Shown here piece after piece: positions 4,119 to 44,100 of a stretch of DNA of 64,000 nucleotides. Each line of letters opens with the position of its first letter. The stretch's first letter is position 1. Under the pieces are notes generated by a model, which saw nothing but the letters and a program-made list of their open reading frames with translations, searched no databases and was not told where the DNA came from. The DNA is from Haliclona indistincta (taxonomy: Eukaryota; Porifera; Demospongiae; Haplosclerida; Chalinidae). The position numbers and the translations under genes were made by a program. Location: contig OZ024787.1 of NCBI GenBank assembly GCA_964017065.1, positions 11,326,989 through 11,390,988 on the forward strand. The letters are read 5' to 3'.

Positions 4119-6373
4119 TAGAGCTGACGATAGTGCTACTATCACTGTCATGATCGATAGTTTTGAAGATATCACGATATGAGAAGTATTGCGATAGCTA
4201 ACGTAATAACTAACTATACTATAATAACTTGTTTGAAAAGTATGCACAAAAAATAAAAAAATACTATTGAAGGTTTTCCGCTAAAAAAACCAGCATGTTA
4301 ACTGATGATGGGTCCAAGCAGGTCCTCTTCCGATTTACTATATGACCAGCTGAACTAAATACACGTTCAGACGGAACACTAGTTGCTGGTACGCATAAAT
4401 ATTTACGAGCAAGATGTACGAGAAGTGGATATCTGCTTGCATTCATCTTCCACCACTTTAACGGATCCCCACTATAATGAGGCTCTGATGAATATCTTGC
4501 AATTTCTGCCTTGATCTTCTCATGGATACCTTGAACAGTGGGAGCTGCTTGTAAGTCATCTTGAACTGAATGCATAATATCGTCTATTAGATTCATTAAT
4601 TGATGTTCACCTTTTCTTCTTTTTTCAGGTGGCTCCTCTCTTGTAGTAGTTGCTGAAGCAGGAGGCTCAGGGTGGGTAGAATCATAAACTTTTGCTAAAT
4701 CCCTTTCCATTGCTTGTACTAGATCATTCTTGTCGCTCAAAGAAAGGAAAGGTAAACTTTTCAACCGAGGGTCAAGGAAAGCTGCTTGGCTAAGTAGTAG
4801 CATAACATCGTCTGAGTATCGCTGCTGTAAGTCTGTGAGCATTTCCTGTTTCATTCTTTTTCCTAACCGTGTGTCTGTAGATGCTTGAACTAAGTGAGAA
4901 TTCAACAATTTGAAAAGAATTGGGCGTACAGTTGAGATAGTGACCCATTTCTCTCCACCGATTGCTTCAGTGATCTTCACAAGAGGCTTCATGATTTCTA
5001 CATATGTTTCCATTGTTTGAAATTCATTATCAGATGGCATGAGATCGGTTTTTTTTTAACTCTAGAAGTGTCGCACACACTGGTTGCTGTTGCTCAATAA
5101 CTCTTGCGACCATATAATAAGCTGAGTTCCACCTCGTTGAAACATCTTGAAGAAGGCTATGAGTTGGGTGCGACAGGCTTTCTTGCTTTTGTTTCAGTAA
5201 GTAAGACGATTTTGACGAGTGGTTAAAATGTGATACCAAGCGACGACATCTAGCAAGCGCTTTAGTAACTTCTGAGATAGAGCATGCCTTTTCAACAGCC
5301 AAATTAAGACAGTGGCTTATACATGGAACTCGTATGTGACCCATCATGTCTATAGCATTAGCTACATTTGAACCGTTATCTGTAGTAAATGAGGTGAGAT
5401 TATTCAGCGAAAGCCTCCACTCTGTAATGATCGACTCCAACTCATCAGCAATATTACTACCTGTGTGAGATTCTGGAAACTCCTTAACTGCCAAAAGATT
5501 GTTGCACAATGCATAGTCTTCATCTAGATAATGCACTGTTAAGCTAATGTAAGCATGCTTTGCTCTGGATGTCCACATATCAGTGGTGCAAGCATACGAG
5601 GTGACAGGAGAAAGTGCCTTTTTAACACGATCTGTTTCTGCTTGGTAAAGTCGAGGAAGGTAGTTGGTAGAGAGTGTTTTTCGATCAGGAGGAACATAAC
5701 GAGGCTCAAATTTCTTCAGCATTGTACGGAAGCCAACATCATTCACTGTATCGATTGGCTGCATGTCCTTAGCTAAAAAATAGCACACTGAGTGTGTCAA
5801 ATCATTCCATCTTGGTGATGATCTTTCAAATGGTGTCGCTTTTTCAAACAAAACATCAATTGTTGCTTGATTTGTGCCACTTGATTGATTTCTCTCCTTA
5901 GGTTTATTGAGCAGATCAAATTGTGTCTTATGGCTAAGTTCGAGGTGGTAGCGAAGGTTAGTTGTGCAACCGGAATACTTCAGCACCTTTGGACAGAGTT
6001 TGCAATGGACAGAAGTCCTCTTCTTCTTATCTGGCTCAATGAATTTACCTATTATTATTATTATAAATAAAATATAGCTGAGATATTCATTTGAGTGCTT
6101 ACCATTGATTGCAGGAAACCCAAAGTACTTCCATACTTCACTGGTAGCCCCAGAAAGAGGGAGGTAGTCAGTGTCTGAACTAGAAGCCATATTCAGTTAT
6201 TCACTATCAGCTGTCAAAACTTCTGTCACAACAGTTGCGATCGCATGTTTCAGTATTGCGCATGCGTAAACATGACCACGTGGCAATCGATTGAATTCAA
6301 TTATACAATCGTGATAGTGATAGTAAAATAATATCGCGATCATCGCATATTTCGATACTATCGCTCAGCTCTA
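4119..6373 (-). mobile_element. hAT transposon (2255 bp) in the long intron of gene A
   Basis: The ends are inverted: TAGAGCTGACGATAGT at 4119 and, on the other strand, TAGAGCTGAGCGATAGT ending at 6373. They are flanked by 8-bp target duplications GTTATAGC (4111-4118) and GTTATAAC (6374-6381), matching at 7 of 8 positions. Eight-bp duplications are the hallmark of hAT elements. The element carries a BED-finger transposase. It lies between the Death exon at 8.6-8.9 kb and the module exon at 3.0-3.7 kb of the proposed gene A, that is, inside an intron. Confidence 0.9.
4264..6190 (-). pseudogene. hAT transposase, ZBED type, with one homopolymer frameshift
   Basis: The N-terminal part (from 6190) has a BED zinc finger (C-x2-C at HCKLCPKV, then H-x4-H in RYHLELSH). 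The middle holds RNase H-fold transposase signatures (TTDMWTSRAKHAYISLTVHY, FTTDNGSNVANAIDMMGH, CISHCLNLAVEKA). The C-terminus is the hAT dimerisation region (WWKMNASRYPLLVHLARKYL, ATSVPSERVFSSAG). A 54-nt intron (6102-6049, GTAAGC...ATAATAG) is implied because removing it restores a continuous finger region; it has no stop, so it can also be read through. At 5049-5057 a run of nine T (A on the coding strand) splits the gene into two frames; one base fewer would join them. It is therefore either a recently disabled copy or an indel error in a homopolymer. Confidence 0.88.
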
Positions 6374-19912: not shown

Positions 19913-20813
19913 TACAAGTAAAGTAAAAAAATTATAAAAAAAACTAAAAAGTGTATGGATGACGCTTGCAAAAGTAAAGGAACAAGATGGGATGATGCTT
20001 GCAAAACTAAAGGAACAAGATGGGATGATGCTTGCAAAAGTAAAGGAACAAGATGGGATGATGCTTGCAAAAGTAAAGGAACAAGATGGGATGATGCTTG
20101 CAAAAGTGAAGGAACAAGATGGAATAATGCTTGCAAATGTAAAAGTCCCAAGTATCCCTACATCAGCGACTTGCTGCGACGACGTGCAACTGACAAATGC
20201 GGAATCCTCTTTTACAACCGTCAATTACATAATCGGACTGCGTCCTCCAAAACACAGATACATGCATGTATTTACAACTGTCAACTACTTCATCGGACTG
20301 CGTCCTCTAAGCACAGATACCTCTAGTTATTTACAGCTGTCAACTACTTCATCGGACTGCGTCCTCCAAGCACAGATACCTCTAGTTATTTACAACTGTC
20401 AACTACTTCATTGGATTGCGTCCTCCAAGCACAGATACCTCTAGTTATTTACAACCATCAATTACTTCATCGGACTGCGCCCTCCAAAACACAGATACCT
20501 CTAGTTATTTACAACTGTCAACTACTTCATCAGACTGCGTCCTCCTAAACACAGATACCTCAGTCTAGTTATTTGCAACCATCAATTACTTCATCAGACT
20601 GCGTCCTCCTTCAAGCCGCTGATGTAGGGATACTTGGGACTTTTACATTTGCAAGCATTATTCCATCTTGTTCCTTCACTTTTGCAAGCATCATCCCATC
20701 TTGTTCCTTTACTTTTGCAAGCATCATCCCATCTTGTTCCTTTACTTTTGCAAGCGTCATCCCTACACTTTTTAGTTTTTTTATTAAAACTTTTTTACTT
20801 TACTTGTTCCTGT
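19913..20813. mobile_element. Foldback element with 33-bp repeats in its arms (copy 1)
   Basis: Inverted ends begin ACAAGTAAAGTAAAAAA. Each arm contains tandem 33-bp units built on GATGATGCTTGCAAAAGTAA followed by AGGAACAAGATGG: about five copies on the left and four on the right. Because 33 is divisible by three, all frames stay open. Between the arms lie about six copies of a ~59-bp repeat (CATCGGACTGCGTCCTCC). Sequence right of 20813 also matches that right of 32628 for about 100 bp, so the full element is longer. Confidence 0.85.
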
Positions 20814-22415: not shown

Positions 22416-22805
22416 ACTAGTACTCAGTAGATATGTAAAAAGCCTTTGTAGCAAAAGCCAGTGCTGCAATACAAAGTAGCCGTATCAGGAAAAGGAAGCA
22501 ATAACGGCAGAAACCGAGGTCCAACTATAACAACACAAGTCTTGTACAGTACCAGCGTCTTCTCTACCAACTGATGAACACGTTTACTGTCTTATAATAG
22601 CTTCCTTATCTCTTCAGAACAGTAAAAAAAGTTAAACAGCTCAACTAAAACCCGTTTCAGTCAGTGTTACAGCGTAACACCATGGATCCCACTGTATACT
22701 ATAGGTCGTTGCATATCCACCGTGTACTGTATCATCTATGGTTACGCTACTGATGCATTTGTGAATTTAGGCATAAACTACATCACCTCATGTACCATGC
22801 ATTAC

Positions 22806-25083
22806 CTTGTGTGGGTGATTGGTGTCCTGAAGAGTAGCGTGCTGCAATATCACTAGCAACTCTGTCCTCTTTCATGCTCTTCAAAGCTGAGATCAGGTCA
22901 CTCCAAGATGCACTGGGAGAGCTGTTTAACCATGAATCAAGCACTTCAGTTTTGAGAATGCCTAATCCATGCGAATGATAGGTAGCATGAATGTTCTCCA
23001 GCTGTTTATTAGTGAGATTGAGATTACGACCAAGAGTGTGCCAATCAGTAACATCTGTTACTGCTTCAACAAGCAGTTTGAGAGGAGGAGAGCCTGCAGT
23101 ATGACGAGACAATAGACATCATTCTGTAGAATAAACTTTACAAAATGAGAGAAAATGAAAGAATAGATAAGTGCTCTTTTCAAAGAAAAGAGAGCAAAGT
23201 AATTATGACAATTGTTGTACCTGTAGCCTTAAATTGAGGTGGTTTTTCAACATATCAAGCTATGCCTACACAAATTAATATGAATTGCATTAAAATAGTT
23301 ATGTGTGTACGTCAGTACATGTACATACCTTGTTTCATTTTCTCAGCCAGTGTCTGCATTTGTTCAACTCGTGACATAGCACTGACAAGTGGTACTAGTA
23401 AGTGAGACTCTTCCTCCAGTCCAAGAGTCTTCAGGAATGAGCTGCCAGTGACCTTACTGGAGGACAACTGAGCTATCTTCTCATCTGATATCAGAGCAGA
23501 GCCAGAGCTGAGTTGAGTGAGGAGAGATTGACATGTGTGCTCATCAGAGACTGCTTCAACCAGACGATGGTAGAAATCAGTGTAGATCTTCTTCAGTGTT
23601 GCTTTTGCAACATCAAGCTGAAAGAAACAAATAAAATTTGTACGAAATCATATAGAGGTTAGTCTGTTACCTCCTCCAGAGTAATAGGGAACACTACCTT
23701 CCCATCTACTGTCACCTCCTCCACTTCAGCATCTTTGAATACTGCTGTGTTCTGAGCCAATTGCTCTAACTTGTCACTAAGAGCCTCAGGGAAGAACCAT
23801 GAGATGATCACCGATCCTGTCTTCATGTGTATACGAATGAAAGATCTCTGGGATTCATGAAAACCTCTCAGTACAAGTTCTTCCAAATCTTCAAGAGTTA
23901 GATCTTCGGCCAACTTTTTGGACACCTTGATTGTAATCTCTTTCATCTGGTCAGGTTTGATTGGCTCCACTCTACTGACAACGGCTTGTTGAAATTCAAG
24001 AATTGTGGTGTCTTTTAAAAATTGACCCATCTTTGTTTTGTAAACTTCAATTGGATGTTTAAGCATCTCATTTTCTAAGTGGCCTACAAGTGCCTCAAGA
24101 TAGTAAATGTTGAAAGAATCCATGTGGTATTCGTGTAACTGGTGTAGGAGTGACTCAAACCCATCGCATTGATTGAATTCTCTCCTAAAAAGAGTATTAA
24201 GAAAGAATTGTGCTTTTGAGAAGTAGCAGTCATGATTCTTCTTTAGAAGCTCCAAAAGATTTGATAGCATATTGGCGAAAGAGATTTCCAGATCACGTAG
24301 TCGCACTAAGACAGCAACACTGGCTTGTATCTCATCTGCTGAGTCAGTTGATCCACCTACAATCATCAGATATTAAAACTATAACAAGCCCGTAGACAGG
24401 GGGGGTTCGGTAGGTTCGGACGAACCGCCCAGGCTACCCAACGGTCCGCTTGAAGTCTTCAGAAATTTACTATACTGGCTACTTTTGACTCTACAAATCG
24501 CTGTTGCTAGAGTAGAAGACTGCAGTAAGCCAGTAATACGGCTAGCTTCCTAGTTGCATGCACGGTACGCGATCGCGAGTGACCAATCTGCTGCCCGATT
24601 CAATGGAAACGCCCATCATGAATAATTAATTAGGTAAAATTTCGGCAGCGCTTCGCGCCGCAAACAAAAACAAGCCTCCCCATTACAAATCCTGGCTACG
24701 GCCTTGTATAAGAATTCCACTTTATATATTTAAAAACACTCACCAGCAGTACTAGTGTCTGATAAATACTTCCTGCTCAATGTTGTAGCCAAAGTGAGGT
24801 AGTTGTTCTGCTTCAGAGCTTCAATCATCATCTTCCACGAAGCATGTACATTATATTGTAGTCAAAACTGGAACATCTTGATCTTTTGTTCCTCGACATC
24901 GGAGCATTCTTTCTTGATAGTATCAAGCTGGCTTATTGGAATGCCCAGAGACACACCAAACACGTACCAGTTGGTCACATCCTTCAGCTCCTTTACCAGC
25001 AGCTCAACTGACAGAGGAATATCTACAAACAGATAATATCAATCTTAAACGTACCCGCGATCGAGTAACTTACTGTCTGACAT
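22806..25083 (-). pseudogene. Gene E, 5' exons: Death domain (with stop), module, CARD-like domain, second Death domain
   Basis: Exons: 25083-25074 (MSD micro-exon), 25022-24744, 24356-23671, 23617-23329 and 23093-22806, all phase-compatible. Exon 2 is a Death domain (LKDVTNWYVFGVSLGIP) interrupted by TGA at 24864-24862, where the paralogs have the TGG of FQFWLQY. Exon 3 is the family module (GSVIISWFFPEALSDKLEQL). Exon 4 is the CARD-like domain, nearly identical in DNA to other family members. Exon 5 is another Death domain (LKLLVEAVTDVTDWHTLGRN and WLNSSPSASW), replacing the coiled-coil/WW region of genes A, C and D. If the stop is real the gene is dead, or starts further downstream. A 10.6-kb transposon sits 20 bp upstream of the ATG. 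Confidence 0.72.
24389..24703. mobile_element. Short inverted-repeat element in intron 2 of gene E
   Basis: Ends CCCGTAGACAGG (24389) and, inverted, GCCGTAGCCAGG (near 24703) are imperfect inverted repeats next to a G-rich run. There is no coding capacity. The target duplication is not clear. Confidence 0.5.
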
Positions 25084-25259
25084 TTTGTTGACGTCTTCTT
25101 GACCTCGAGGTATTATACTAGTCAGAAAACGCACAAGGACCCGACCTAAGGACCCGCGATCTTTAACCCGTCCGCCCATTGACCATCGCGATCGCGCAGC
25201 GCAGCGACTTCGCGTCTTCCCCTCTCAGTCTACTACTCAGTTCACCTTGTTACTTGATG

Positions 25260-28200
25260 TAATCTTACTGTACTACTCTGGTAGTATCTACTAACTCTAT
25301 TCTTGCACTCAGAATAGTTAGATCTATTTAAAGCATGCTGGTGATGTGTTACCAGCACTGTGATTGCAGTAGCAATCCAGGTATTTATTAGTCAGGCGTG
25401 GCCTGCCTAATCGCATACTGTATATAGTCAGGGGACACTAGTATACACGACTTGTGCCCGTCGCAGCTATAGCTGCGACCCAATCAGATTGCAGTATCAG
25501 TTATGAATCTAATTTAAAACGTAATAATTACGTATGCGATTAGGCAGGCCACGCCTGACTAGTATGCTGTTGCTAGTCAGGCGTGGCCTGCCTAGCACGT
25601 GTACGCCCACGCATGTTAATACTACGTTAACCACTTCCTAAAATAATTGTAACCGCTACATTCCAGCGCGACGACTCAGGTATACTAGTGTCCCCTGACT
25701 ATATACAGTATGCGATTAGGCAGGCCACGCCTGACTAGGTATTTATTCGATAAGGACCCACACGTGTAACTTGATGAAGGAATAAGCTAATGTCACTAGA
25801 CTGCTCTGGCAGTCTCTACTAACTCTATTCTAGCTGTGTGAAAAGTTAGATCTGTTTAAAGCATGCTGGTGATGTGTTACCAGCACTGTGATTGCAGTAG
25901 CAATCAAGGTATAGTATTCGATAAAGACCTACTCTTGTAACTTGATGTAGGAATAAGCTAATGTCACTGGGCTGCTCTGGCAGTCTCTACTAACTCTAGT
26001 CTTGCTGTGTGAAAAGTTAGATCATTTTAAAGCATGCTGGTGATGTGTTACCAGCACTGTGATTACAGCAGCAATCATAGGTATTGCATTCGATAAGGAC
26101 CCACACTTGTAACTTGATGTAGGAATAAGATAATTTCACTAGACTGCTCTGGCAGTCTCTACTAACTCTATTCTTGCTGTCTGAAAGGTTAGATCTTTTT
26201 AAAGCATGCTGGTGATGCATTACCAGCACTGTGATAACCGCAACAATCATAGGTAATGTATTCGATAAGGACCCACACTTGTAACTTGATAAGATAATTT
26301 CACTAGACTGCTCTGGCAGTCTCTACTAACTCTAGTCTTGCTGTGTGAAAGTTAGATCATTTTAAAGCATGCTGGTGATGTGTTACCAGCACTGTGATTA
26401 CAGCAGCAATCATAGGTATAGTATTCGATAAGGACCCACACTTGTAACTTGATGTAGGAATAAGCTAATGTCACTGGGCTGCTCTGGCTGTCTCTACTAA
26501 CTCTATTCTTGCTGTGTGAAAAGTTAGATCTATTTAAAGCATGCTAGTGATGTGTTACCAGCACTGTGATTGCAGTAGCAATCCAGGTATTGTATTCGAT
26601 AAGGACCCACACTTGTAACTTGATGTAGGAATAAGATAATTTCACTGGGCTGCTCTGGCTGTCTCTACTAACTCTATTCTTGCTGTCTGAAAAGTTAGAC
26701 CTATTTTAAGCATGCTGGTGAGATGTTACCAGCACTGTGATTGCAGTAGCAATCCACGTATTGTATTCGATAAGGACCCACACTTGTAACTTGATGTAGG
26801 AATAAACTAATGTCACTAGACTGCTCTGGCAGTCTCTACTAACTCTATTCTTGCTGTCTGAAAGGTTAGATCATTTTAAAGCATGCTGGTGATGTGTTAC
26901 CAGCACTGTGATTACAGCAGCAATCATAGGTATAGTATTCGATAAGGACCCACACTAGTAACTTGATGTAGGAATAAGATAATTTTCACTAGACTGCTCT
27001 GGCAGTCTCTACTATCTCTATTCTTGCTGTCTGAAAGGTTAGATCATTTTAAAGCATGCTGGTGATGTGTTACCAGCACTGTGATTGCAGTAGCAATCCA
27101 GGTATTGTATTCGATAAGGACCCACACTTGTAACTTGATGTAGGAATAAGCAAATGTCACTAGACCGCTCTGGCAGTCTCTAAAAACTCCATTCTTCCTG
27201 TCTGAAAGGTTAGATCCTTTTAAAGCATGCTGGTGATGTGTTACCAGCACTATGATAACCGCAACAATCATAGGTAATATATTCGATAAGGACCCACACT
27301 TGTATGTAACTTGATGTAGGAATAAGATAATTTCACTAGACTGCTCTGGCAGTCTCTACTAACTCGAGTCTTGCAGTGTGAAAAGTTAGATCCTTTTAAA
27401 GCATGCTGGTGATGTGTTACCAGCACTGTGATTGCAGTAGCAATCCAGGTATTTATTCGATAACGACCCACACTTGTAACTTGATGAAGGAATAAGCTAA
27501 TGTCACTAGACTGCTCTGGCAGTCTCTACTAACTCTATTCTCTCTGTGTGAAAAGTTAGATCCCTTTAAGGGCATGCTGGTGATGTGTTACCAGCACGGC
27601 GATAACCGCAGCAATAATAGGTATTGTATTCAATAAGGACGCATACTTGTATCTTTATGTAGGAATAAGCCAATGTCTCTAGACTGCTCTGTCAATCTCT
27701 ACTAACTCTATTCTTGCTGTGTGAAAAGTTAGATCTTTTTTAAGCAGGCTGGTGATTTGTTACCAGCACTGTGATTACAGCAGCAATCATAGGTATTGTA
27801 TTCGATAAGGACCCACACTTGTAACTTGATGTACAAATAAGCTAATCTCACTGGGCTGCTCTGGCAGTCTCTAATAATTCTATTCTTGCTGTATGAAAAG
27901 ATAGACCTATTTTGAGCATGCTGGTGATGTGTTACCAGCACTGTGATTACAGCAGTAATCATAGGTATTGTATTCGATAAGGACCCATGCACACTTGTAA
28001 CTTGGTGTAGGAATAAGCTAATGTCTCTAGACTGCTCTGACAATCTCTACTAACTCTATTCTTGCTGTGTGAAAAGTTAGATCCTTTTAAGTATGCTGGT
28101 GATGTGTTACCAGCACTGTGATTACAGCAGCAATCATAGGTATTGTATTCGATAAGGACCCACACTTGTAACTTGATGTAGGAATAAGATAATATCACTA

Positions 28201-28440
28201 GACTGCTCTGGCAGTCTCTACTAACTCTATTCTTGCTGTGTGAAAAGTTAGATCTTTTTAAAGCATGCTAGTGATGTGTTACCAGCACTGTGATTACAGC
28301 AGCAATTATAGGTATTGTATTCGATACGGACCAACACTTGTAACTTGAAGTAGGAATAAGCTAATGTCACTAGACTGCTCTGGCAGTCTCTACTAACTCT
28401 ATTCTTGCTGAGTGAAAATTAGCTCTGTTTAAAGCATGCT
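25260..28440 (+). repeat. Left arm array of the ~172-bp repeat
   Basis: About 16-17 tandem units, excluding the nested element at 25390-25736. A unit contains TTCGATAAGGACCCACACTT, AACTTGATGTAGGAATAAGC, AGACTGCTCTGGCAGTCT, AAAGCATGCTGGTGATGTG and TGATTGCAGTAGCAATCC. Three short hairpins occur per unit: AGACTGC/GCAGTCT, GCTGGT/ACCAGC and TGATTGC/GCAATCA. ORFs across the units are not conserved as protein. Confidence 0.93.
25390..25736. mobile_element. Nested foldback element, 347 bp
   Basis: Inverted ends start AGTCAGGCGTGGCCTGCCTA and extend about 60 bp on each side (to GGGGACACTAGTATAC). Two further inverted copies of the first 27 bp lie in the centre. An 11-bp direct repeat AGGTATTTATT flanks it (25379-25389 and 25737-25747), splitting one 172-bp satellite unit. 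Confidence 0.87.
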
Positions 28441-29420
28441 TTAAATGACTCTGGTCATCTTTTATGTTGTTGTGGTATTGAAATAGTAGCACCAGGTATC
28501 ATCGACTATGGTAGCACAAGGACCCACACTTGCTACTAACTACAGGAATACTCTAGCACTTAACTACTCCATTTGCAATAGGTACAAACACTGTTCTTTC
28601 TCTCTGCTTACTTTAAATGACTCTGGTCCTCTTTCATGTTGTGGTGGTATTGAAATAGTAACACCAGCTATCATCAACCATTGTAGCACAAGGACCCACA
28701 CATGCTACTAACTACAGGAATACTCTAGCACTTAACTATCTATTTGCAATAGGTACAAACACTGTTCTTTCTCTCTGCTTACTTTAAATGACTCTGGTCA
28801 TCTTTCATGTTGTGGTGGTATTGAAATGGTAACACCAGCTATCATCGACTATGGTAGCACAAGGACCCATACATGCTACTAACTACAGGAATACTCTAGC
28901 ACTTAACTACTCCATTTGCAATAGGTACAAACACTGTTCTTTCTGTCCAGTGACTTTAAATGACTCTGGTCATCTTTCATGTTGTGGTGGTATTGAAATA
29001 GTAACACCAGCTATCATCGACTATGGTAGCACAAGGACCCACACATGCTACTAACTACAGGAATGCTCCAGCACTTAATTACTCCTTTTGCAATAGGTAC
29101 AAACACTGTTCTTTCTCTCTGATTACTTTAAAGGACTGTGGTCATCTTTCATGTTAAGTTGTGGTGGTATTGAAGTAGTAACACCAGCTATCATCAACCA
29201 TTGTAGCACAAGGACCCACACATGCTACTAACTACAGGAATACTCCAGCACTTAACTACTCTATTTGCAATAGGCACAAACACTGTTCTTTCTGTCCAGT
29301 GACTTTAAATGACTCTGGTCATCTTCCATGTTGTGGTGGTATTGAAGTTGAAACACAAGCTATCATATCTATCAACTATTCCAGCACTTAAATTATCCAT
29401 TTACAATAGGTGCAATTGAT
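28440..29420 (+). repeat. Second tandem array (~171-bp unit) of the left arm
   Basis: About five to six units, each with GACTCTGGTCATCTTTCATG, GTAACACCAGCTATCATCGA, GTAGCACAAGGACCCACACA and CAATAGGTACAAACACTGTT. The stretch from AAGGACCCACAC to AGGAATA resembles the 172-bp unit, so the two arrays probably share ancestry. Only part of one unit is present in the right arm (30013-30125). Confidence 0.88.
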
Positions 29421-29807
29421 AGGAATGTATGATTTTCAGCAATGTTTGCCCAATTAAATAATAAAATTATGCATGCTTGTGGCACTTCCGTGCAGGCATA
29501 GACTATGATGCTGCTTAGCTTCAGTGATAGCTTGTGATAGCTTGTACTAGTGATACTAGCTTTGTTATACATTTGTAATTGTTATCGATCCTGTAACTTT
29601 ACTTTTGAAAGTATCATCATTTCTTGTTATTTTCCTTTTTCACGATTTGTTACCTGCAAACATCATCTCTACACTTTAAACCTTCTTATTATTATTTCAA
29701 TGATTTGGAGTGCATAATGAGTGTTAGTAAAAACTGCAGGGCAATAGCACTAGCCTAATTCTTACATCAACTGAAAACTGTCATAATCAATTCAGTTGTG
29801 TATTGTT

Positions 29808-30013
29808 CTAATCCTTTAGCCATGGATACTGGTTTACTATGGTTCTTCTTCTGTCTTTGTAGTCATATAGCAACTCTGCGCCCATTGTGATTGTTTTTGA
29901 TGCCATGAATATGATCCCAGGTGTCTCATCTATCAGCACAACTTCGGGCTTTACATTTGGACTCTTAGAAGAGTGATTAATCAAACGACCAACTCTCTGT
30001 GTCTCTGTCTTAA
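29808..30013 (-). pseudogene. Captured 3' exon of a SET-domain methyltransferase (KMT5A-like)
   Basis: In the loop of the giant foldback element, the minus strand reads GRLINHSSKSPNVKPEVVLI, then IIFMASKTITMGAELLYDYK, and ends PWLKD before a stop at 29810-29808. RLINHS and ELLYDY are the two hallmark SET motifs (substrate/AdoMet-binding NHS and the terminal tyrosine block). The short C-terminus ending PWLK resembles KMT5A/SETD8, the H4K20 mono-methyltransferase. Only the C-terminal ~65 residues are present; upstream the sequence runs straight into satellite at 30013. It cannot encode an enzyme alone and is inferred to be a gene fragment captured by the transposon. Confidence 0.8.
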
Positions 30014-30124
30014 GTGCTGGAGTATTCCTGTAGTTAGTAGCATGTATGGGTCCTTGTGCTACCATACTCGATGATAGCTGGTGTTACTATTTCAATACCA
30101 CCACAACATGAAAGACGACCAGAG

Positions 30125-31983
30125 TCATTTAAAGCATGCTTTAAACAGATCTAACTTTTCACACAGCAAGAATAGAGTTAGTACAGACTGTCAGAGCAGT
30201 CTAGTGACATTAGCTTTTTCCTACATCAAGTTACAAGTGTGGGTCCTTATCGAATACAATACCTGGATTGCTACTGGAATCACAGTGCTGGTAACACATC
30301 ACCAGCATGCTTTAAAAGGATCTAACTTTTCACACAGCAAGAATAGAGTTAGTAGAGACTGCCAGAGATGTCTTAGTAGTGATATTATCTTATTCCTACA
30401 TCAAGTTACAAGTGTGGGTCCTTATCGAATACAATACCTATGATTACTGCTGTAATCAAAGTGCTGATAACACATCACTAGCATGCTCAAAATAGGTCTA
30501 TCTTTTCGTACAGCAAGAATAGAATTAGTAGAGACTGCCAGAGCAGCCCAGTGAGATTAGCTTATTTCTACATCAAGTTACAAGTGTGGGTCCTTATCGA
30601 ATACAATACCTATGATTGCTGCTGTAATCACAGTGCTGGTAACAAATCACCAGCACTCTTAAAAAGGATCTAACTTTTCACACAGCAAGAATAGAGTTAG
30701 TAGAGACTGCCAGAGCAGTCTAGTGACATTATCTTATTCCTACATCAAGTTACAAGTGTGGGTCCTTATCGACTACAATACCTATGATTACTGCTGTAAT
30801 CACAGTGCTGGTAACAAATCACCAGCATGCTTAAAAAAGATCTAACTTTTCACACAGCAAGAATAGAGTTAGTAGAGACTGTCAGAGCAGTCTGGTGACA
30901 TTAGCTTATTCCTACATCAAGTTACAAGTGTGGGTCCTTATCGAATACAATAACTGGATTGCTACTGCAATCACAGTGCTGGTATCACATCACAAGCATG
31001 CTTTAAAAGGATCTAACTTTTCACATAGCGAGAATAGAGTTAGTAGAGACTGCCAGAGCAGTCTAGTGACATTATCTTATTCCTACATCAAGTTAGAAGT
31101 GTGGGTCGTTATTGAATAAAATACCTATGATTGTTGCGGTTATTACAGTGCTGGTAACACATCACCAGCATGCTTTAAATGATCTAACCTTTCAGACAGC
31201 AAGAATAGATTAAGTAGAGACTACCAGTGCAGCCCAGTAACATTAGCTTATTCCTACATCAAGTTAGAAATGTGGGTCCTTATCGAATACAATGCCTGTG
31301 ATTGCTGTTGTAATCACAGTGCTGGTAATACATCACCAGCATGCTTAAAATAGGTCTAACTTTTCAGACAGCAAGAATAGAATTAGTAGAGACTGCCAGA
31401 GCAGCCCAGCAAGATTAGCTTATTTCTACATCAAGTTACAAGTGTGGGTCCTTATCGAATACAATACCTATGATTGCTGCTGTAATCACAGTGCTGGTAA
31501 CACATCACCACTCACCAGCATGCTTTAAAAATATCTAACTTTTCACACAGCAAGAATAGAGTTAGTAGAGACAGCCAGAGCAGTCTAGTGGCATTAGCTT
31601 ATTCCTACATCAAGTTACAAGTGTGGGTCCTTATCGAATACAATACCTGGATTGCTACTGCAATCACAGTGCTGGTATCACATCACAAGCATGCTTTAAA
31701 AAGATCTAACTTTTCACACAGCGAGAATAGAGTTAGTAGAGACTGCCAGAGCAGTCTAGTGACATTAGCTTATTCCTTCATCAAGTTACAAGTGTGGGTC
31801 GTTATCGAATACAATACCTGGATTGCTGCTGCAATCACAGTGCTGGTAACACATCACCAGCATGCTTTAAAAGGATCTAACTTTTCACACTGCAAGACTC
31901 GAGTTAGTAGAGACTGCCAGAGCAGTCTAGTGAAATTATCTTAATCCTACATCAGGTTACATACACGTGCGGGTCCTTATCGA
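30125..31983 (-). repeat. Right arm array of the ~172-bp repeat, inner part
   Basis: About eleven units in the opposite orientation to 25260-28440, preceded at 30013-30125 by part of one inverted ~171-bp unit. The array is cut by the insertion at 31983. Confidence 0.92.
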
Positions 31984-33878
31984 AAACAAGTAAAGTAAAA
32001 AATTTTTAATAAAAAACTGAAAAGTGTAGGGATGACTCTTAAAAAAGGAAAGGAACAAGATGGGATGATGCTTGCAAAAGTAAAGGAACAAGATGGAATA
32101 ATGCTTGCAAATGTAAAAGTCCCAAGTATCCCTACATCAGTGGCTTGCTGCGACGACGTGCAATTGACAAATGCGGAATCCTCTTCTTATACCTTTTACA
32201 ACCGTCAATTACTTATCAGACCGTGTCCTCCAAAACACAGATACCTCTAGTTATTTACAACTGTCAACTATACTTCATCGGACTGCGTCCTCCAAACACA
32301 GCTACCTGCAGCTTATTTACAACTGTCAACTACTTCATCGGAATGCATCCTCCTAAACACAGACACCTATTATTATAGTTATTCACAACCGTCAATTACT
32401 TCATCGGACTGCGTCCTCCAAACACAGATTCACAACCGTCAATTACTCCATCGGACTGCGTCCTCCTTCAAGCCGCTGATGTAGGGATACTTGGGACTTT
32501 TACATTTGCAAGCATTATTCCATCTTGTTCCTTTACTTTTGCAAGCATCATCCCATCTTGTTCCTTTCCTTTTTTAAGAGTCATCCCTACACTTTTCAGT
32601 TTTTTATTAAAAATTTTTTACTTTACTTGTTCCTGTTACTTTTTTGATCACTGTCAGTTTGAACTTATTAGTTGTATTCTGTGTTAGATGTTATTTCATT
32701 CTTACAACTCTGTGAGCAGTATATAGATACTAGTCTAGCAGAGATGTGAACGTGCACAGCCTCTTGAGAGTAAGGAGTGTGGTTTAAATGTTAAATATTA
32801 CCAATCACAAGAATAATCATTCATTGAAAGGTTTAAAATAGTTAAAGAGGTTGAGGACGCAGACAGCATAATGTCAAGTCCAGGTATGATTTGACAACAT
32901 GATACTTGTTAGTATTGTAATGGATGAAGAAGAGACTAGCACTGACAATTCATCGACGCTGCGAGCCTAAATAGTAGGAGCACGCCTAGTAGAATCTTGT
33001 TGAAGTCATTATCACACTCACAGAGGCTTCTAGTCCTTTGCAACTTACGCTGCGTGGTGTAGGAACCGTACTGTGCGCAGAATCTTGCTGCCGGTAAGCA
33101 GGCTAGACACTCAAGTTGTTCACGTCTGTGTAAGTCAGCTTTAACCCGCCATCTGAATCGTTAACGAACAGATCAGTGTTATTTAGGGTATAGTACTGGT
33201 TTAGACACATTTTCATACCTCTGGCTTGCGCGCTGAAGCGTCCAGAGCAGAGACAAAACGCAGTAGCGAGATAGCTGCAAAACCGATGTGGGCGGAGTTA
33301 ATGATAAGAAGCGACAAGAGGGTTAATTAATGAAGTCGCTAGTCCAAAACGGTCCAAAAACCATGTTTTTCAAGGATTACTCGCTTCTGGTAGTGTTTGA
33401 TGCCTATCTAAGAAGTAAGTGCACTAACCCTGATATATACACATGCGATGGTGCAGGTTTGGTAGTGATTCGTTCACTCATGACAGCGCTATGCTTGTCA
33501 AAGAAGAAGACGAACAATTCGCGTGGGCGGCGATTTCAGTTTACCACTTTAGAAACGTCTGCCAGCTTCGCCAAAGGTATTTTCTTGCTCAGAACAATCG
33601 CCTGATCAATCCTAGATGTCTAGAATCTCGAGAAACGCTATAACAGCGAAGATCTGCAAATGCTCTCTGTCTTGATTTTCGTCGTCAAACAAGCAGTCCC
33701 GGCGACTTTCATAGACTTCCTACAAGCGCTTACACTTCAGAGTCACTCAGAGATAGTTAAAATGCAGTATAGATGTATAATAGTAGAGATATGTGCGAAA
33801 ACTCATTTCACACATGAGTAGCCGCCATCTTAATTCGTGGTCATCCCTACATATCATTGCCTATCGGCAATGATAATA
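31983..33878. mobile_element. Foldback element copy 2 inserted in the right arm
   Basis: It interrupts a 172-bp unit between CTTATCGA and TAATATATTACC (an uninterrupted unit near 27270 has this junction). The first 640 bp is a palindrome like that at 19913: ACAAGTAAAGTAAAAAAT ends, 33-bp units and a ~59-bp repeat core. The rest (32630-33870) shows no recognised gene apart from a short plus-strand ORF at 33330-33605. The right end carries CATCCCTACAT. Confidence 0.75.
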
Positions 33879-35540
33879 TATTACCTATGATTGTTTCGGT
33901 TATCATAGTGCTGGTAACACATCACCAGCTTGCTTTAAAAGGATCTAACCTTTCAGACAGGAAGAATAGAGTTTTTAGAGACTGCCAGAGCAGTCTAGTG
34001 ACATTAGCTTATTCCTACATCAAGTTACAAGTGTGGGTCCTTATCGAATACAATACGTGGATTGCTACTGCAATCACAGTGCTGGTAACATCTCACCAGC
34101 ATGCTTAAAATAGGTCTAACTTTTCAGACAGCAAGAATAGAATTAGTAGAGACTGCCAGAGCAGTCTAGTGAAATTATCTTATTCCTACATCAAGTTACA
34201 AGTGTGGGTCCTTATCGAATACAATACCTGGATTGCTACTGCAATCACAGTGCTGGTAACACATCACTATCATGCTTTAAATAGATCTAACTTTTCACAC
34301 AGCAAGAATAGAGTTAGTAGAGACAGCCAGAGCAGCCCAGTGACATTAGCTTATTCCTACATCAAGTTACAAGTGTGGGTCCTTATCGAATACTATACCT
34401 ATGATTGCTGCTGTAATCACAGTGCTGGTAACACATCACCAGCATGCTTTAAAATGATCTAACTTTCACACAGCAAGACTAGAGTTAGTAGAGACTGCCA
34501 GAGCAGTCTAGTGAAATTATCTTATCAAGTTACAAGTGTGGGTCCTTATCGAATACATTACCTATGATTGTTGCGGTTATCACAGTGCTGGTAATACATC
34601 ACCAGCATGCTTTAAAAAGATCTAACCTTTCAGACAGCAAGAATAGAGTTAGTAGAGACTGCCAGAGCAGTCTAGTGAAATTATCTTATTCCTACATCAA
34701 GTTACAAGTGTGGGTCCTTATCGAACACAATACCTATGATTGCTGCTGTAATCACAGTGCTGGTAACACATCACCAGCATGCTTTAAAAAGATCTAACCT
34801 TTCAGACAGCAAGAATAGAGTTAGTAGAGACTGCCAGAGCAGTCTAGTGAAATTATCTTATTCCTACATCAAGTTACAAGTGTGGGTCCTTATTGAATAC
34901 AATACCTATAATTGCTGCTGTAATCACAGTGCTGGTAACACATCACCAGCATGCTTTAAAATGATCTAACTTTTCACACAGCAAGACTAGAGTTAGTAAA
35001 GACTGCCAGAGCAGCCCAGTGACATTAGCTTATTCCTACATCAAGTTACAAGTGTGGGTCCTTATCGAATACAATACCTGGATTGCTACTGCAATCACAG
35101 TGCTGGTAACACATCACCAGCAAGCTTAAAATAGGTCTAACTTTTCACACAGCAAGACTAGAGTTAGTAGAGACTGCCTGAGCAGCCCAGTGAGATTAGC
35201 TATTTCTACATCAAGTTACAAGTGTGGGTCCTTATCGAATACTATACCTTGATTGCTACTGCAATCACAGTGCTGGTAACACATCACCAGCATGCTTTAA
35301 ACAGATCTAACTTTTCACACAGCTAGAATAGAGTTAGTAGAGACTGCCAGAGCAGTCTAGTGACATTAGCTTATTCCTTCATCAAGTTACAAGTGTGGGT
35401 CGTTATCGAATAAATACCTGGATTGCTACTGCAATCACAGTGCTGGTAACACATCACCAGCATGCTTTAAATAGATCTAACTATTCTGAGTGCAAGAATA
35501 GAGTTAGTAGAGACTACCAGAGTAGTACAGTAAGATTACA
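33879..35540 (-). repeat. Right arm array of the ~172-bp repeat, outer part
   Basis: About ten units, inverted relative to the left arm, ending next to the shared terminal sequence that begins near 35525. Together with 30125-31983 the right arm has about 20 units against 16-17 on the left. Confidence 0.92.
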
Positions 35541-35925
35541 TCAAGTAACAAGGTGAACTGAGTAGTAGAGGGGAAGACGCGAAGTCGCTGCGCTGCGCGA
35601 TCGCGATGGTAAATGGGCGGACGGGTTAAAGATCGCGGGTCCTTAGGTCGGGTCCTTGTGCGTTTTATGACTATTGTAATACCTCCTTCTTGACGAGTGT
35701 GCTATGACACACCCCCAAAACAAAATCGCGAGATAATAATTCGTGAGAAAAGGCGGGCTTTTTGAAAGATAAATTGCGATTGTCAGTGCCCGGGAAAATA
35801 ATAGGATCTTGACTGGTAACCAGTAGTCTAGAGCGTCTGCAAAATTATGCGATGTCAAGTTATCATAGGTCATCTCTAGCCTCGTCCCAGGCACTAAAAA
35901 TTGTCAAGAATTAAGTAATACTAAG

Positions 35926-43605: not shown

Positions 43606-44100
43606 TGATACAAATGATGGAATGGTTGCTAGTGATGGAGCTGCAGTACCTGATAGAGATGATGGAATGGATGCTAGTGATGGAGTTGCAGTACCTGATA
43701 CAGATGATAGAATGGATGCTAGTGATGGAGTTACAGTACCTGATACAGATGATGGAATGGTTCCTAGTGATGGAGTTGCAGTACCTGATACAGATGATGG
43801 AATGGTTGCTAGTGATGGAGTTACAGTACCTGATACAGATGATGGAATGGTTGCTAGTGATGGAGTTACAGTACCTGATAGAGATGATGGAATGGTTGCT
43901 AGTGATGGAGTTACAGTACCTGATACAGATGATGGAATGGTTGCTAGTGATGGAGTTACAGTACCTGATACAGATGATGGAATGGTTGCTAGTGATGGAG
44001 TTGCAGTACCTGATACAGATGATGGAATGGTTGCTAGTGATGGAGTTGCAGTACCTGATACAAACGATGGAATGGTTCCTAGTGATGGAGTTGCAGTGTC
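43606..44100. repeat. 45-bp minisatellite, about 11 units
   Basis: The unit is GATGGAATGGTTGCTAGTGA then TGGAGTTGCAGTACCTGATACAGAT. Because it is 45 bp long it stays open in two plus frames (15-residue repeats DDGMVASDGVAVPDT and MEWLLVMELQYLIQM) and one minus frame (SGTATPSLATIPSSV). The minus frame extends 25 codons before and about 50 codons after the array. Unit-to-unit changes are few (GTT/ACA, GCT/CCT). Coding use is not supported by flanking exons. Confidence 0.93.

Follow-up and report, generated by a model that had tools for sequence, protein, structure and literature searches.

The studied window comprises 64,000 nucleotides of the genome of the sponge Haliclona indistincta (contig OZ024787.1, positions 11,326,989 to 11,390,988, or C5:11326989-11390988 in the contig numbering used here). 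Between positions 25107 and 35685 it contains a large element with inverted ends and with arms built from a 172-bp satellite unit. This element is very probably a copy of a non-autonomous family of foldback-type DNA transposons, and the target-site duplication of the family is 7 bp long.

Architecture of the element in the window

The termini of the element are GAGGTATT, starting at 25107, and AATACCTC, ending at 35685, and opposed arrays of the 172-bp unit lie inward of both. The left terminal inverted repeat (25107-25259, forward strand) has about 150 bp outside the satellite and a tip of type C, and the right one (35527-35685, reverse strand) has a tip of type B; over 25107-25389 and 35409-35685, the two inverted ends agree at 96%. 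The left arm (25260-28439, forward strand) holds about 16 satellite units, and the right arm (30134-35526, reverse strand), which is oppositely oriented and interrupted, holds about 20. These are the counts obtained with the basic local alignment search tool (BLAST); a profile search gave 15 and 19 full units. Between the arms lies a centre of 1.7 kb (28440-30133), composed of a diverged direct array of a unit of about 172 bp (28439-29366) and other sequence. The 7-bp target-site duplication, CTTCTTG, is found on the forward strand at 25095-25101 and at 35686-35692.

The preliminary description presented the element as inverted ends running into opposed 172-bp arrays. The ends and the arrays are confirmed, as parts of a structure that is both real and unusual, but the arms are not plain arrays, given the 1.7-kb centre and two inserts. 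The first insert, in the left arm, is a 349-bp inverted-repeat sequence (25389-25737) resembling a miniature inverted-repeat transposable element. It is bounded by a 9-bp duplication, GGTATTTAT (25380-25388 and 25738-25746), and the site without the insert can be seen in the right arm, in the mirror unit at 35381-35450. The second insert, of about 1.9 kb, occupies about 31985-33865 in the right arm. Its first part is an element of inverted 33-bp repeats (31985-32631) with a relative at 19914-20807, and its remaining 1.2 kb or so presented no Pfam match in the two frames tested. These two relatives are smaller foldback-like elements in their own right, in which inverted arrays of the 33-bp repeat flank a repeat of 59-66 bp.

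The centre includes a SET-domain fragment of 67 amino acids (29811-30011, reverse strand), which matches the Pfam SET domain with E=4.1e-8 and has KMT5A/SET8 as its closest PDB match (E=4.1e-14). Among six frames of the element compared with Pfam, this fragment was the sole match. The long-centre copies of the family (E01, E15, E16, E17 and S4 in the numbering introduced below) constitute one class, the centre of the window copy being homologous to those of E15, E16, E17 and S4. In E17 the SET fragment is 83% identical and has a stop. More distant relatives, at 42-45% identity, are found at C9:7936066, C7:10267700, C3:12706566, C6:1509466 and C4:4170030. The sequence most likely originated by capture of part of a gene, a reading that implies no function. 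The SET-like frame at C4:4170030 (43%) was also considered as a lead to an autonomous element, since a P-type transposase frame (L057) lies at a distance of 4 kb, on the other strand. This lead was rejected: a repeat search of 8 kb around the two frames found no long terminal inverted repeat, and their proximity is taken as coincidence. The window copy is a composite member of its family, with a rarer left tip type, two nested inserts, and a centre with an acquired SET8-like gene fragment.

The family in the genome and its target-site duplication

The element's first 197 bp were searched against its own genome (144 Mb, 46 contigs), which yielded 40 scored matches among 52 candidates. These end matches group by position into 17 inward-facing pairs (E01 to E17), each opening with a left end and closing with an inverted right end, and six singles (S1 to S6). 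At least 16 paired copies thus exist besides the window copy, and together with the six single ends they indicate a dispersed transposon family and not an assembly join. Copies with other borders, which the preliminary description named as a refuting outcome, were not observed: the borders are shared, though the duplication has another length than the one it gave. Among the singles, S4 has both arms with one end found, S1 to S3 are essentially one arm, and S5 and S6 are a tip alone, of which the outer 70 bp or so are present. By eye, the frames beside S5 are Helitron-like and similar to genes of non-long-terminal-repeat elements.

From end to end, the pairs range from 2.6 kb (E09) to 34 kb (E17, including about 20 kb of other sequence), and the longest arm in the family reaches up to 61 units of 172 bp. 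In many copies (E02, E05, E07, E12, E13 and others) only a junction of 10-20 bp, and no other sequence, separates the two arrays. The arms are complementary in sequence over 3.8 kb at 90% in E02 and over 4.6 kb at 89% in E13. The structure is that of a foldback element: long inverted arms with tandem repeats make up most of it, and target duplications stand at its borders. The reading of the preliminary description as a foldback transposon with satellite arms is upheld by 17 paired copies with shared ends, ten of them backed by flanking duplications.

The 172-bp arm unit has at least 304 matches in the genome (35 of 45 candidate places scored), arm-unit counts being lower bounds. Among the matches listed, which are about half and were assigned by inspection, one falls outside the family loci, a fragment of about three units at C3:1024650. 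Judged by these matches, the satellite of the arms seems to occur almost nowhere but in the transposon. This holds less for the diverged central unit, with pieces of about 170-410 bp and 70-92% identity at C4:7180028, C4:4583885, C4:7274467, C10:2749807 and C4:5738532.

Most copies carry tips of types A and B, with mean identities over about 130 bp of 95.6% (55 pairs) and 97.3% (66 pairs), respectively, and eight of the nine element pairs typed at both ends have one A and one B. Type C, found at the left end of the window copy, is rarer: it also occurs in S1, at the right end of E17, and at two further loci, L039 (C7:10298666) and L040 (C3:13790385). At these two loci the tip is followed by a tandem array of an approximately 101-bp unit (L039:117-1087), which was found at four places in the genome. 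No frame longer than 120 amino acids was present in the 4 kb read of each. Given that they are 98-99% alike including their flanks, L039 and L040 were set aside and are considered part of another repeat. A second group matching the terminus pattern GAGGTATTRTAATAGTCAA (C6:8763-8847 kb, C1:13626 kb and C1:16836-16874 kb) was likewise rejected as termini, because the sequence ahead of the supposed terminus is also conserved in the three places fetched.

In order to place the duplications, the termini were set as GAGGTAT and ATACCTC, both of which could be located in 12 of the 17 pairs; E10, E11, E13, E16 and E17, whose ends are truncated, missing or altered, were left out. An exact 7-bp duplication abuts the termini, never reaching 8 or 9 bp, in ten of the twelve testable copies (E02, E03, E04, E05, E07, E08, E09, E12, E14 and E15). 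As a control, flanks were paired across different copies, and none of 132 combinations matched at 4-9 bp. The target-site duplication of the family is thus 7 bp, not 9. The perfect 9-bp duplication said to enclose the element does exist as a match, since CTTCTTGAC is present at 25095 and again at 35686, but it is not the target-site duplication, which here is CTTCTTG. The two further matching bases (AC) are most simply explained by chance.

On the left side of the window copy, CTTCTTG is followed by ACCTC (25102-25106, forward strand) and then by GAGGTATT. ACCTC is the reverse complement of the element's first five bases, GAGGT, with which it forms a perfect palindrome, and the right terminus also ends with these five bases. 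It may thus be a footprint left when an element excised from this site earlier, or a palindromic addition made by hairpin opening on insertion. We hold this explanation tentatively, at somewhat less than an even chance, as it concerns a single case that a chance change may also explain, and the ten copies with abutting duplications have no extra bases.

Turnover of the satellite arms

Random unit pairs across all loci average 90.4% identity. Against this baseline, left units 2-5 of the window copy are 98.8% identical to right units 5-8 taken in mirror order, and a five-unit version of the block at 98.3%. Mirror blocks of three to six units were found in four of the 18 loci with both arms, namely the window copy, E08, E13 and E14 (the latter three at 99.4-99.7%), and the reversed-order controls presented no blocks. 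In the other 13 of the 17 elements measured, the best mirror run is barely above its reversed-order control (by at most 0.014, in E10).

Block duplications within an arm, of 3-12 units at 98-100%, are more widespread, occurring in nine of the 18 loci. The largest are those of E13 (12 units, 99.9%), E08 (9 units, 99.9%), E16 (8 units, 99.6%) and E15 (6 units, 100%), and blocks of three to four units are present in E02, E04, E12, E17 and S4. No duplicated block was found within either arm of the window copy. The proposal that the arrays expanded independently in each arm hence fits other copies, such as E13, E08 and E15, but accounts at most in part for the window copy, where a mirror-image block of four to five units is shared between the arms at 98-99%.

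Positional homology of units across copies was considered and rejected: over 686 arm pairs, the median best five-unit diagonal is 0.932, versus 0.931 in reversed order. The clearest exception is the pair E02 and E03 (0.981). The central junction is common to E02, E03, E06, E08 and E12, at 91-97% identity over about 420 bp, which points to descent from a common palindromic parent; the junctions of E05 and E07 are 96% identical. On the simplest reading of these comparisons, the spread of copies is slower than the rebuilding of their arms.

The mobilising enzyme and the alternative readings

We consider it very probable that the window element belongs to a non-autonomous foldback family that would move as follows. 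A transposase acting in trans would recognise the conserved tips of about 150 bp and make a staggered insertion of 7 bp. Inward of the tips there would be little sequence constraint, so the arms would be free to lengthen and shorten, presumably through unequal exchange or replication slippage involving several units at a time. Occasionally one arm may be copied from the other, by gene conversion or by template switching through the hairpin.

Several observations weigh against this reading. The window copy departs from the 7-bp rule through its five additional bases, E06 lacks any flanking duplication, and the five pairs with damaged or altered ends were unusable for the duplication test. The junction of E04 has the same sequence in reverse at the turn, yet is just 80-85% identical over about 420 bp. 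No autonomous copy was found: the terminus pattern, searched with at most three mismatches, gave 42 places (two for a reversed-pattern control), and no transposase was seen inside the elements when the non-satellite frames of ten loci were read by eye. Of the 59 genome matches to the P-type transposase domain (PF21787), none comes closer than 69 kb to a located end or element, although a partner whose ends have diverged, or whose match falls under the cut-off, could escape such a search. One of the 52 matches to the domain (PF10551) of Mutator-like elements (MULE) falls inside the span of E16. Finally, the tips of the family begin GA...TC (GAGG...CCTC), whereas those of the P-type element of this genome begin CA...TG.

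An enzyme of the P superfamily is nevertheless the best candidate for mobilisation, and we see about an even chance that the family is a Galileo-like P-superfamily foldback, moved in trans by a P-type transposase that leaves 7-bp duplications, with inverted repeats lengthened by tandem repeats; membership in the superfamily is itself only a candidate assignment. Elements of this superfamily (Galileo, P, 1360) make target-site duplications of 7-8 bp and have termini that typically begin with CA. The family presents the former and not the latter. P-type transposase domains are available in the genome, and a P-type transposon (L059, L060, L061 and L062) with a 602-amino-acid open frame and termini CATAG...CTATG also leaves 7 bp in both copies that could be bounded (GTATATG and CTGGAGC); L042 is a third copy, with 99% identity across 3.4 kb. 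Counting against the assignment are the distance of 69 kb and the terminal sequences, which differ from those of this sole P-type element examined (CATAGATATT versus GAGGTATT). In addition, hAT domains are more numerous in the genome, with at least 150 matches (150 scored of 332 candidates), the nearest among those listed being, by eye, in the window about 21 kb away. Duplications of about 7 bp are possible in other superfamilies too, such as some hAT and Dada elements.

As regards further features of the window, a hAT dimerisation domain lies at 4270-4503 on the reverse strand (C5:11331258-11331491; E=9e-22, in a frame of 263 amino acids). A Death-domain frame (22786-23118, reverse strand; Pfam E=5.7e-10) lies to the left of the element, some 2 kb from where it inserted. 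A tandem array at 43606-44097 has 10.9 copies of a 45-bp unit with 95% matches, a unit length compatible with a coding repeat.

The preliminary description regarded the element as Mutator-like on the basis of the 9-bp match, and this assignment is probably wrong. A foldback moved by a MULE transposase with 9-bp duplications is very unlikely, even though CTTCTTGAC stands on both sides of the window copy, MULE domains occur in the genome and in the span of E16, and the nested left-arm insert has a 9-bp duplication. Mutator elements make target-site duplications of 8-11 bp, usually 9 bp, while the length of exactly 7 bp in ten of the twelve testable copies speaks against Mutator and is consistent with the P superfamily. 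Moreover, the match in the window does not adjoin GAGGTATT, as CTC stands between them after 9 bp, and five bases after 7 bp. The MULE match in E16 (C5:702695) lies in the interval from the broken array to the far tip. Given that eight other matches have an equal score (nine in all), it is read as a putative nested insert. The next MULE match is 61 kb from any located end. Neither the tip pattern nor the domain positions produced the autonomous relative with a MULE transposase that had been suggested as a check, and the other copies did not present the 9-bp duplications expected of it. The case indicates that a lone 9-bp match in one copy is able to misassign a superfamily.

The alternative of plain satellite arrays inverted by local inversion or misassembly, without transposition, is hardly credible: the 172-bp arrays do resemble a satellite in form, and assembling long palindromic arrays is difficult, but other copies have the same borders, the same tips stand with 7-bp duplications at ten different sites, and the listed 172-bp matches fall, by inspection, in family loci except for one three-unit fragment (C3:1024515).

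The preliminary description knew of no element of exactly this build, but foldback elements with tandem-repeat arms have already been described, and FB, TU, Galileo and Tetris are the closest known ones. Galileo, a P-superfamily foldback element of Drosophila, shares with the present family the 7-bp duplications, the long inverted repeats enlarged by tandem repeats within them, and the mostly non-autonomous copies. It differs in that here the unit is 172 bp, arms have up to 61 units, tips begin with GAGG, and no transposase-bearing copy was found. Tetris, a Mutator-type foldback of Drosophila virilis with repeats of about 220 bp, seeded a satellite; it is alike in its inverted arms of satellite-length tandem repeats and in linking a foldback transposon with satellite DNA. 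Its duplications are 9 bp, however, against 7 bp here, where a single three-unit fragment of the arm unit was found outside the elements among the matches listed. FB (FB-NOF) of Drosophila likewise has inverted arms of tandem repeats and a foldback hairpin form, but its units are short (10-31 bp) and its duplications are 9 bp. TU of sea urchin has inverted arms with an outer tandem-repeat domain, but with duplications of 8 bp and units of about 15 bp. The novelty of the present family is thus one of degree, in unit length, arm length, copy number and the record of arm turnover.

A further reading, which we regard as improbable, is that of a mobile satellite. A nucleosome-length satellite would be the cargo, constantly renewed within every copy as blocks duplicate and one arm is copied onto the other. 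The transposon would deliver this satellite DNA to chromosome arms, where it would persist almost exclusively within the element. The captured SET8-like fragment would then suggest a connection to H4K20 methylation and silencing.

For the non-autonomous foldback family as such, the roughly 20 copies with recognisable ends constitute a natural series for reading the growth of a satellite within a transposon. The tips are common to the copies, and the arms record exchanges, in the form of blocks duplicated inside an arm (up to 12 units), copying from one arm to the other, and central junctions that several copies share. The series is relevant to the question of how foldback transposons and satellite DNA give rise to one another.

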